Source: Pseudomonas sp. (GTDB lineage: Bacteria; Pseudomonadota; Gammaproteobacteria; Pseudomonadales; Pseudomonadaceae). Taken from it: DNA of 64,000 nucleotides. The number at the start of each line of letters is the position of its first letter. The first letter of the stretch is position 1. The notes under the pieces were generated by a model, which saw only the letters and a program-made list of their open reading frames with translations, did no database searches and had not been told where the DNA came from. The translations under genes and the position numbers were made by a program. The stretch spans positions 1 through 64,000 of the forward strand of contig NZ_JAUXXP010000058.1 in NCBI RefSeq assembly GCF_030684895.1, written 5' to 3'. Below, one piece after another: positions 49,457 through 54,369 of this stretch.

Positions 49457-49552
49457 GACTTGAGGCCAGTTGCGTAGGACGTAGAAACAGCCCGCGCGGT
49501 GCCGAGCCAATCCGCTACTATGCGCGGCTCAGCCAACCATACGCGCCCGATC

Positions 49553-51112
49553 ATGCCTGCTACTTCTCGCTTCCCTGCTGCGCCTTACCTATTTGCCTGC
49601 CTGCTTGGCCTGCTGGCGCTTTTCGGCCTGTGGTTTGGTATTGGCCAACCGGTCGAACTGGCAGATGCCGCAACGCCCACGCACAAGCTGCAGTGCGCTT
49701 CATACACGCCGTTCGACAAAGACCAGTCGCCCTTCGATCAACCGATGCAGCTGCGCCCCGAGCGCATGGACGCCGACCTCGCGCTGCTCGCCGAACGCTT
49801 CGAGTGCCTGCGCACCTACTCGGTGACCGGTCTGGAAGAGCTGCCAAACATGGCGCGCAAACATGGCCTGAAACTGATCGTCGGCGCCTGGGTTAGCCGT
49901 AACCCGGCCGACACCGCGGTTGAGATTGCCGGTTTGGTGAAAATCGCCAACGCCCACCCGGATGTGGTGCAAGCGGTGATCGTTGGTAACGAGGCGCTGC
50001 TGCGCAAAGAAGTCACCCCGCAGCAACTGGTGGCGTTGATTGAGCAGGTCAAGGCGCAGATCAAGCAGCCGGTGACCTATGCCGATGTCTGGGAGTTCTG
50101 GCTCAAGCACCCGGAAGTCGCCCCGGTAGTCGACTTCATCACCATCCACCTGCTGCCCTACTGGGAAGACAACCCCGCCGGCATCGAAAGCGCGCTGCAT
50201 GAAGTCGCCGAGGTGCGCCAGACCTTTGCCAACGCTTACGCGCCTAAAGACATCCTGATTGGCGAAACCGGCTGGCCCAGCGAAGGCCGCCAGCGTGAAA
50301 CAGCAGTGCCAAGCCTGGTCAACCAGGCCAAGTTTATCCGTGGCTTTGTCGCCATGGCCGAGCAGAACGGCTGGCGCTACAACCTGATCGAGGCGTTTGA
50401 TCAGCCATGGAAGCGCGTCAGCGAAGGCGCCGTGGGCGGTTACTGGGGCCTGTATGACGCTGATCGCCAGGACAAGTCGATCCTCGCCGGCGCCGTATCC
50501 AACCTGCCGCACTGGCCGACCTGGCTGAGCTTCAGCTTGGTCATTGCAGCGGCCACCCTGCTGCTGGCCGGCCGCCCGCACTCGCCCCGTGCCGCGCTGC
50601 TGTTGCCGCTGCTGGCGGCGCTGGGCGCCGGTTGTATCGGTCTGTTTGCAGAGTTGACGCTGATCACCAGCCGCTATCTCGGCGAATGGCTCTGGGCCGG
50701 TGTGCTGATTGTGTTGAATCTGCTGGTGTTGAGCCATGCCGCGTTGTTACTCAGCAGCCGCAATGGCTGGCGCGCACGCGCGTTCAACATGCTGCACAGC
50801 AAGGGCGCACTGTGGCTGGCGCTAAGCGGCTTTGCCGGGGCGGTGATGATGCTCGCGCTGGTGGTGGACGCACGCTACCGCAGCTTCCCCAGCGCCGCGC
50901 TATTGCTGCCAGCACTGGTTTACCTGTGCCGTCCGGTGGGCGGCTACCGCCGTGAGGTCGCCCTGCTCGCCCTGCTGATCGGCGCCTGTATTGCGCCGCA
51001 GCTGTACCAGGAAACCCTGAGCAACTGGCAGGCCCTGGGTTGGGCGCTGACCTGCGTGCTACTGGTGGCGGCGCTGTGGCGCAGCCTGCGGGTTAACGCG
51101 CAAACCACCTGA
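49553..51112 (+). CDS. membrane-anchored GH17 beta-glucan enzyme
   Basis: 519 aa from ATG 49553. A membrane anchor (about 11-30) precedes a glycoside hydrolase family 17 barrel (about 45-330) and about six C-terminal membrane helices (about 345-510). The catalytic acid/base is Glu147 in VIVGNEALLR and the nucleophile Glu238 in ILIGETGWPSEG. In Pseudomonas such proteins are annotated as beta-(1-6)-glucan synthases; the GH17 fold suggests transglycosylation or branching of periplasmic beta-glucans. No GT2 glycosyltransferase domain is fused or adjacent, unlike NdvB-type proteins. Confidence 0.9.
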   Translation: MPATSRFPAAPYLFACLLGLLALFGLWFGIGQPVELADAATPTHKLQCASYTPFDKDQSPFDQPMQLRPERMDADLALLAERFECLRTYSVTGLEELPNMARKHGLKLIVGAWVSRNPADTAVEIAGLVKIANAHPDVVQAVIVGNEALLRKEVTPQQLVALIEQVKAQIKQPVTYADVWEFWLKHPEVAPVVDFITIHLLPYWEDNPAGIESALHEVAEVRQTFANAYAPKDILIGETGWPSEGRQRETAVPSLVNQAKFIRGFVAMAEQNGWRYNLIEAFDQPWKRVSEGAVGGYWGLYDADRQDKSILAGAVSNLPHWPTWLSFSLVIAAATLLLAGRPHSPRAALLLPLLAALGAGCIGLFAELTLITSRYLGEWLWAGVLIVLNLLVLSHAALLLSSRNGWRARAFNMLHSKGALWLALSGFAGAVMMLALVVDARYRSFPSAALLLPALVYLCRPVGGYRREVALLALLIGACIAPQLYQETLSNWQALGWALTCVLLVAALWRSLRVNAQTT

Positions 51113-51585: not shown

Positions 51586-52158
51586 ATGCTGATACGTCGC
51601 CTGATACTGATCGCCGCAAGCCTGCTCGGCCTCTGGATGCTGTGGGTCATACTGTTGCCCGCGCCCAGCGGCCTGCCGCCCACTACGCCGCTGTCCAGCG
51701 GCAGCTGGCGCGTGGCGGAGCACACGGTCAGCAGGTTGGAGAGCTTCCAACTCGAAGCACGTATTCTCGGCCGTGAAGACTACTACCTCGACCGCGGCGC
51801 CAAACTCTCGCCGACCGACCTGGCGCTCGGCTGGGGGCCGATGGCTGATCCCGAGGTGCTGCGCCATATCAGCATCAGCCAACGCAACCGCTGGTATTTC
51901 TGGCGCGCCGAACAACTGCCGATCGAGCGCCGGCAGATAGAGATCCACAGCGCCAATATGCACCTGATACCTGCCACCCCTGAAGTAGCCAGCACCCTGG
52001 CCGGGCTCAAAGCAGGTCAGCAGATTCGCCTGAGCGGGCAACTGGTACGAATCGACGGTGACGATGGCTATCGCTGGGTCAGCTCACTCAGCCGCGAAGA
52101 CACCGGCGACGGTGCCTGCGAGCTGATCTGGGTCGAGCAACTGCAGGTGCTGCCCTAA
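51586..52158 (+). CDS. hypothetical membrane-anchored protein
   Basis: 190 aa with one N-terminal membrane helix (about 5-25, LILIAASLLGLWMLWVILL), then a soluble periplasmic or extracellular domain. GREDYYLDRGAKLSPTDLALGWG is a striking segment and the C-terminus (RLSGQLVRIDGDDGYRWVSS) looks like a small beta-barrel. I recognise no family. It is divergent from the four-helix protein with overlapping upstream regions. Confidence 0.75.
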   Translation: MLIRRLILIAASLLGLWMLWVILLPAPSGLPPTTPLSSGSWRVAEHTVSRLESFQLEARILGREDYYLDRGAKLSPTDLALGWGPMADPEVLRHISISQRNRWYFWRAEQLPIERRQIEIHSANMHLIPATPEVASTLAGLKAGQQIRLSGQLVRIDGDDGYRWVSSLSREDTGDGACELIWVEQLQVLP

Positions 52159-52301: not shown

Positions 52302-53600
52302 ATGTCGCATGTCCCTCGTCTGCTTGCCCTTCTCAGTTGCCTAGCCCTGATTGCACCCGTCAGCGCGGCCGATATTGATGCCAGCAGTTATGGCTACCCC
52401 ATCAGCAATGCATTCGAAGCCACCCTGGCGACTACGCCGCCGGAGCTGCGCCCTACGCTTCCGGCCGACGCCGACATCAACCAGAGTGACTACCAGATCA
52501 AATTGCGCCCTGAGCGCGAGTTTGAGCTACCGGACAACTTCTGGCCGGTCACCAAGATGCGCTACCGCCTGGCCAAACAGTCCGGTGAAGCGCCGCTGAT
52601 CTTTATCATCGCCGGCACGGGCGCGCATTACGCCAGCAGTACCCCGGAATACCTGAAGAAGCTGTTCTACGGCGCCGGTTATCACGTGGTGCAACTGTCG
52701 TCGCCGACCAGTTATGACTTTATGACCTCAGCCTCGCGCTTTGCCACGCCCGGCATTACCCGCGAAGACGCCGACGACCTGTACCGCGCCATGCAAGCCG
52801 TGCGTGCGCAGCATCCGCGCCTGAAAGTCAGCGAATACCACCTCACCGGCTACAGCCTGGGCGCGCTGCAGGCGGCCTTTGTCAGCGAGCTGGATGAAAC
52901 CCGGCGCAGCTTCAACTTCAAGCGCGTGCTGCTACTCAACCCGCCGGTCAACCTCTACACCTCAATCACCAACCTCGACCGCATGGTGCAAACCAAGGTT
53001 GAGGGCATCGACAACAGCACCACCTTCTATGAGCTGGTACTGGGCAAGCTGACCCGCTACTTCCAGAACAAGGGCTACGTCGATATCAACGACGCCCTGC
53101 TCTATGACTTCCAGAACTCCGGCGAACAGCTCAGCGACGAGCAGATGGCCATGTTGATCGGCGCGGCGTTCCGCTTCTCTTCCGCCGATATCGCCTTTAC
53201 CTCGGACCTGATCAACCGCCGTGGCCTGATCACCCCAATCAACTACCCAATCAGCGAAGGCACCAGCCTTACGCCGTTCTTCAGGCGCGCCCTGCAGTGC
53301 GATTTCGACTGCTACCTGACCGAACAGTTGATTCCCATGTGGCGCGCACGCACAGACGGCGGCAGCATTGCGCAGCTGATCGATCAGGTCAGCCTATATG
53401 GCGTGGCCGATTACCTGAAAAACAGCAGCAAGATCGCCGTTATGCACAACGCCGATGATGTCATCCTCGGCCCCGGTGACCTGGGCTTTTTGCGCCGCAC
53501 TCTGGGTGATCGCCTGACCGTTTACCCGCTGGGTGGCCATTGCGGCAACCTCAACTACCGCGTCAATAGCGACGCCATGCTGGAGTTCTTCCGTGGCTAA
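52302..53600 (+). CDS. exported alpha/beta hydrolase coupled to mlaA
   Basis: 432 aa with a Sec signal peptide (MSHVPRLLALLSCLALIAPV, cleavage near VSA). Mature residues contain IIAGTGAHY (oxyanion region), LTGYSLGALQ with nucleophile Ser185, HNADDVI (acid) and GGHCGNL (His), a complete catalytic triad in order. The stop overlaps the GTG start of mlaA, so the two proteins are made together. A role in handling phospholipid or acyl chains at the outer membrane is inferred from that neighbour only; I do not recognise a characterised homolog. The upstream 143 bp show no clear promoter. Confidence 0.8.
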   Translation: MSHVPRLLALLSCLALIAPVSAADIDASSYGYPISNAFEATLATTPPELRPTLPADADINQSDYQIKLRPEREFELPDNFWPVTKMRYRLAKQSGEAPLIFIIAGTGAHYASSTPEYLKKLFYGAGYHVVQLSSPTSYDFMTSASRFATPGITREDADDLYRAMQAVRAQHPRLKVSEYHLTGYSLGALQAAFVSELDETRRSFNFKRVLLLNPPVNLYTSITNLDRMVQTKVEGIDNSTTFYELVLGKLTRYFQNKGYVDINDALLYDFQNSGEQLSDEQMAMLIGAAFRFSSADIAFTSDLINRRGLITPINYPISEGTSLTPFFRRALQCDFDCYLTEQLIPMWRARTDGGSIAQLIDQVSLYGVADYLKNSSKIAVMHNADDVILGPGDLGFLRRTLGDRLTVYPLGGHCGNLNYRVNSDAMLEFFRG

Positions 53601-54369
53601 GCCCATTTCCCTTGCCGTGTTTTTCGCCCTGTTGCTCGGTAGCAGCCTGGCGCATGCCCAGCACGCCGTTGATGACGACGGTTTCAAGCAGCCGTTGCAG
53701 CACCTGCAGTTCAACCCGGGGCTGGATCAGCGCGAGTTCGAGCGCTCGACCCTCAGCGCGCTGCAAGTCTATGACCCGCTGGAGTCGTGGAACCGCCGCG
53801 TCTATCACTTCAACTACCGCTTCGATGAGTGGGTGTTCTTGCCGATTGTCGACGGCTACCGCTATATCACCCCCAACCTGGTGCAAACCGGCGTCAGCAA
53901 CTTCTTCAGCAACCTGGGTGATGTGCCCAGCCTGCTCAACAGCGCGCTGCAGCTCAAGGGCAAGCGCGCCATGCAGACAACCGGGCGCCTGCTGCTCAAC
54001 ACCACCCTGGGGGTCGCCGGTCTGTGGGACCCGGCCACGCGCATGGGCCTGTCCAAGCAGCGCGAAGACTTCGGCCAAACCCTCGGCTATTACGGCACAC
54101 CGGCCGGGCCTTACCTGATCCTGCCGCTGCTGGGGCCGTCGAACGTGCGTGATACCGGCGGTCTGGTGGCGGATTTTGCGGCGAAAAGCCAGGTCAACTG
54201 GCTGAATGTCGCCGAAGCCAGCGTTAGCCACCCGGAAATCACCCTGCTGGAAGTGGTCGACCAGCGCTCCACGGTGAACTTCCGTTACGGCCAGCTCAAC
54301 TCACCGTTCGAGTACGAGAAAATTCGCTTCTTCTACCACGAGGCGCGCAAGCTGCAGATCGCCGAATAA
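53593..54369 (+). CDS. mlaA: outer-membrane lipid asymmetry protein MlaA (VacJ)
   Basis: 258 aa from GTG 53593, which overlaps the previous stop, has GGAG 8 bases upstream and gives a signal peptide (AKPISLAVFFALLLGSSLAHA). The YDPLESWNRRVYHFNYRFDE and DPATRMGLSKQREDFGQTLG segments are MlaA signatures. MlaA sits in the outer membrane with a porin and passes mislocalised phospholipids to MlaC. No lipobox cysteine is present near the cleavage site, so this protein is probably not acylated, unlike E. coli MlaA. The mlaBCDEF genes are elsewhere. Confidence 0.94.
   Translation: MAKPISLAVFFALLLGSSLAHAQHAVDDDGFKQPLQHLQFNPGLDQREFERSTLSALQVYDPLESWNRRVYHFNYRFDEWVFLPIVDGYRYITPNLVQTGVSNFFSNLGDVPSLLNSALQLKGKRAMQTTGRLLLNTTLGVAGLWDPATRMGLSKQREDFGQTLGYYGTPAGPYLILPLLGPSNVRDTGGLVADFAAKSQVNWLNVAEASVSHPEITLLEVVDQRSTVNFRYGQLNSPFEYEKIRFFYHEARKLQIAE

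Follow-up and report, generated by a model that had tools for sequence, protein, structure and literature searches.

The locus analysed here lies in a 64,000-nucleotide stretch of DNA from a Pseudomonas species (the window) and consists of an exported hydrolase gene followed by a gene of the MlaA family, designated mlaY and mlaZ for reasons given below (Table 1). The earlier note on this DNA had stated that the stop codon of the hydrolase gene overlaps the GTG start of its neighbor, and this is the case. Translation of mlaZ may thus be coupled to that of mlaY through the overlap. Short overlaps between genes on the same strand are commonplace in bacteria, and a single overlap therefore carries little weight. 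The promoter scan gave no match, and the terminator-like matches all fall within genes.

Table 1. Positions of the mlaYZ features, numbered from the first base of the window
Feature	Position	Strand	Basis
probable mlaY orthologue: exported alpha/beta hydrolase (predicted phospholipase), 432 aa; ATG start at 52302, TAA stop at 53598-53600	52302..53600	+	triad S185/D386/H413
probable mlaZ orthologue: MlaA-family (PF04333) outer-membrane protein, 258 aa; GTG start at 53593	53593..54369	+	Pfam, tree
8-base overlap, mlaZ GTG start with mlaY TAA stop (GTGGCTAA)	53593..53600	+	sequence

Two other genes were seen upstream. An ORF of 190 aa (window 51586-52158) belongs to no Pfam family, and a similar ORF, recognizable by a LSPTDLALGWGPM motif, is found upstream of mlaY at locus L045, with one other gene between. 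The second (window 49499-51112) encodes a glycosyl hydrolase family 17 protein; of 80 Pseudomonas loci examined for it, 60 have a match in the vicinity of mlaY.

Sequence and predicted fold of MlaY

The mlaY product begins with a signal peptide (MSHVPRLLALLSCLALIAPVSA-AD), assigned by eye from the sequence, and essentially all of the relatives read have an N-terminal signal sequence by the same criterion. The window signal peptide contains LLSC, and MlaY was considered as a lipoprotein on this account. This possibility was rejected, since the lipobox cysteine is not conserved among the relatives read. One commentary terms MlaY an outer-membrane lipoprotein (PMC10474453). S185 lies in the nucleophile elbow GYSLG, D386 in NADD, and H413 in GGHCGN. 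Across 35 relatives, with identity down to 30%, S185 and H413 are invariant, and the position of D386 is occupied by aspartate in 33 and by glutamate in two. Both the signal peptide and the full catalytic triad that the earlier note had ascribed to the hydrolase are borne out.

The window hydrolase has no match in Pfam or NCBIfam; Pfam Abhydrolase_1 matches 15 of the 35 relatives. A sequence search of the PDB with the window protein found no match, and a profile search gave weak matches only. The AlphaFold2 model of MlaY (mean pLDDT 90.7, pTM 0.89) was compared to the PDB with Foldseek, and the best matches were esterases, lipases, and thioesterases of the alpha/beta-hydrolase fold. The TM-scores to these entries were moderate (about 0.4 by query length), which is probably due to a large helical insertion predicted at residues about 218-374.

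Distribution of the pair and identity of MlaZ

MlaY is encoded in 238 of 249 genomes of the Pseudomonadaceae, nearly always in one copy. An MlaA-family gene lies directly downstream of mlaY in all 77 Pseudomonadaceae loci with enough sequence. Eight bases are shared in 67 of these 77 loci, the rest ranging from a 4-base overlap to a 4-base gap, as scored by a script that chooses the start codon nearest an 8-base overlap and is slightly biased towards eight. Whether the pair is conserved across Pseudomonas was a question raised by the earlier note. All 80 named Pseudomonas genomes have the two genes linked, every one with a GTG start and the 8-base overlap. The refuting outcome named in the earlier note, a pair unlinked in most relatives, was therefore not observed. 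Based on these counts, the gene order is tightly conserved, and the conservation of the pairing is beyond chance. The overlap is not essential to MlaYZ, since genomes of the L045 type have a gap of 3-4 bases between mlaY and mlaZ instead.

Two irregular loci were encountered. The genome G132 contains an extra MlaY-like gene (L185; G132:C1:4200400-4203700), 62% identical, which has no MlaA-family gene beside it and adjoins an apparent amino-acid permease gene. At L065 (G121:C1:3591316-3592550), mlaY is split between two frames, with mlaZ intact, due to a frameshift or a sequencing error.

The second protein of the window matches the MlaA family (PF04333) at 6.9e-67. Its signal peptide is type I-like (MAKPISLAVFFALLLGSSLAHA-QH), and no lipobox was seen in the window protein; both assignments were made by eye. 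Another PF04333 protein, the canonical MlaA, is encoded on a different contig (C64) of the same genome. Canonical MlaA, represented by PA2800 and E. coli MlaA/VacJ, has the PF04333 domain in common with window MlaZ but belongs to a separate clade. In a tree of 42 MlaA-family proteins, a branch with 100/99 support separates all 27 that are linked to the hydrolase from the canonical proteins, and the window protein is among the 27. The earlier note had taken the window gene for mlaA; judged by its place in the tree and by the separate canonical mlaA of this genome, it is the paralogue mlaZ. A third gene of the MlaA family occurs in some Pseudomonas genomes (L186-L189) and forms a clade of its own. 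These genes were considered as further MlaYZ pairs and rejected, because no mlaY adjoins them. At L186, the encoded signal is lipobox-like (LAGC), and a neighboring gene codes for a response regulator.

The 11 genomes of the family without MlaY each contain exactly one MlaA match. The proteins from eight of the 11 were placed on the tree, and all eight are canonical. Completeness is only 70-90% for some of these assemblies, and a few of the absences may therefore be gaps. What is added here to existing knowledge is the near-universal presence of the pair in the sampled family and the joint absence of both members from the few genomes without it.

The pair is also found outside the Pseudomonadaceae. 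Among 369 genomes sampled from the class, ten that do not belong to this family match the hydrolase at E <= 0.001, and in most of these an MlaA-family gene adjoins the hydrolase gene where the contig permits. MlaZ from several other gammaproteobacterial families (L093, L094, L096, L097, L099, L100) has a lipobox-like signal, such as LAGC or LTGC, whereas the Pseudomonadaceae versions do not. These linked pairs with a lipoprotein-type MlaZ may be a modest addition to what is known of the system. It is possible, though somewhat less likely than not, that MlaYZ is an old co-inherited module across several gammaproteobacterial families in which MlaZ is a lipoprotein, that the MlaZ of Pseudomonadaceae lost its lipid anchor, and that MlaY and MlaZ may form a complex of fixed ratio by way of translational coupling.

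Relation to MlaYZ of P. aeruginosa and proposed function

PA3238 and PA3239 of P. aeruginosa were reportedly named MlaY and MlaZ by Guest et al. (PNAS, 2023). Several lines connect the window genes to these two. S185, D386, and H413 of the window protein align with S187, D388, and H415 of relatives that belong to a single genus of the family (L045), in which the triad lies at exactly 187/388/415, the numbering published for PA3238 (Ser187, His415, Asp388; PMC11977310). Gene order, the annotation of PA3239 as VacJ, and family-wide orthology provide the remaining links. PA2800/PA2801 was considered as the counterpart locus and rejected: PA2800 is canonical mlaA, and the matching tags are PA3238/PA3239.

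According to a 2024 review of MlaA (PMC11131202, citing Guest et al. 2023) and two further papers (PMC11977310, PMC12569750), P. aeruginosa MlaZ takes mislocalized glycerophospholipids from the outer leaflet and delivers them to the lipase MlaY for degradation. Rescue of SDS/EDTA sensitivity and an MlaZ-dependent phospholipase activity have been reported for the P. aeruginosa genes (PMC11131202, PMC11977310). Co-expression of mlaY and mlaZ lowers CtpA activity and neither gene alone does so (PMC12569750), which is consistent with MlaY and MlaZ acting together. Further literature on MlaYZ is available (PMC10925693, PMC10474453). The proposal in the earlier note of a periplasmic lipid hydrolase that works with an MlaA-type protein was thus right in substance. 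The accompanying suggestion, that such an enzymatic arm might be undescribed, does not stand, since one has reportedly been published for P. aeruginosa MlaYZ (Guest et al. 2023, PNAS e2302546120). The pair is already known, and the observation made from the window is real but ordinary, because the very probably orthologous system was described in 2023.

Two other explanations of the locus were weighed. In one, MlaY is a periplasmic esterase or thioesterase of general function, which has an MlaA-family gene in its operon and receives no lipids from the MlaA-family protein, as might be suggested by the generic esterases and thioesterases that are its closest solved folds and by the additional solo MlaY-like gene of G132, which has no MlaA gene nearby. 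This is highly improbable. The two genes stay linked throughout the family and in several distant families of Gammaproteobacteria, the genomes that lack MlaY carry a single MlaA match, and P. aeruginosa MlaY is tied to loss of phospholipid and cardiolipin, with the effect on CtpA seen only for mlaYZ together (PMC11977310, PMC12569750).

The version favored by the earlier note makes the pair an accessory of canonical Mla, with the MlaA-family gene as the true mlaA and the hydrolase editing lipids before transport by MlaC. It can be given hardly any credence: the strength of the MlaA family match and the presence of MlaD-family proteins in this genome would suit it, but a distinct canonical MlaA in another clade is encoded on another contig, and canonical MlaA is the copy that remains where MlaY has been lost, in the eight cases placed on the tree.

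With phospholipids in the outer leaflet, the barrier to detergents and drugs is weaker. The partners of canonical MlaA are MlaC and MlaFEDB. PldA/OMPLA (PF02253) has an analogous function to MlaYZ, degrading misplaced outer-leaflet phospholipids, but it is an outer-membrane beta-barrel with a fold unrelated to that of MlaY, and a search for PF02253 found none in this genome. The locus is almost certainly a Pseudomonas MlaYZ system, in which MlaZ would pass misplaced outer-leaflet phospholipids to an acyl-ester-cleaving MlaY, alongside canonical Mla. By analogy, the window orthologue would play the same role as P. aeruginosa MlaYZ. MlaZ, as an MlaA-like outer-membrane protein, would extract the misplaced phospholipids and may hand them directly to MlaY, a periplasmic serine hydrolase predicted to cleave their acyl esters, and the products would be recycled. 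This route would run beside MlaA-MlaC-MlaFEDB in a genome without detectable PldA. A destructive second route beside retrograde transport would explain how bacteria that lack PldA cope, a point made in 2023.

The window pair resembles P. aeruginosa MlaYZ in the order of the genes, hydrolase then MlaA-like, in the Ser-Asp-His triad at corresponding positions, in export of the hydrolase, and in coexistence with canonical MlaA and no PldA. It differs from the genomes whose MlaY has the triad at the published positions in having the overlap rather than the short gap, and the window MlaY lacks a C-terminal tail, about 15 residues long, that is present in those genomes.
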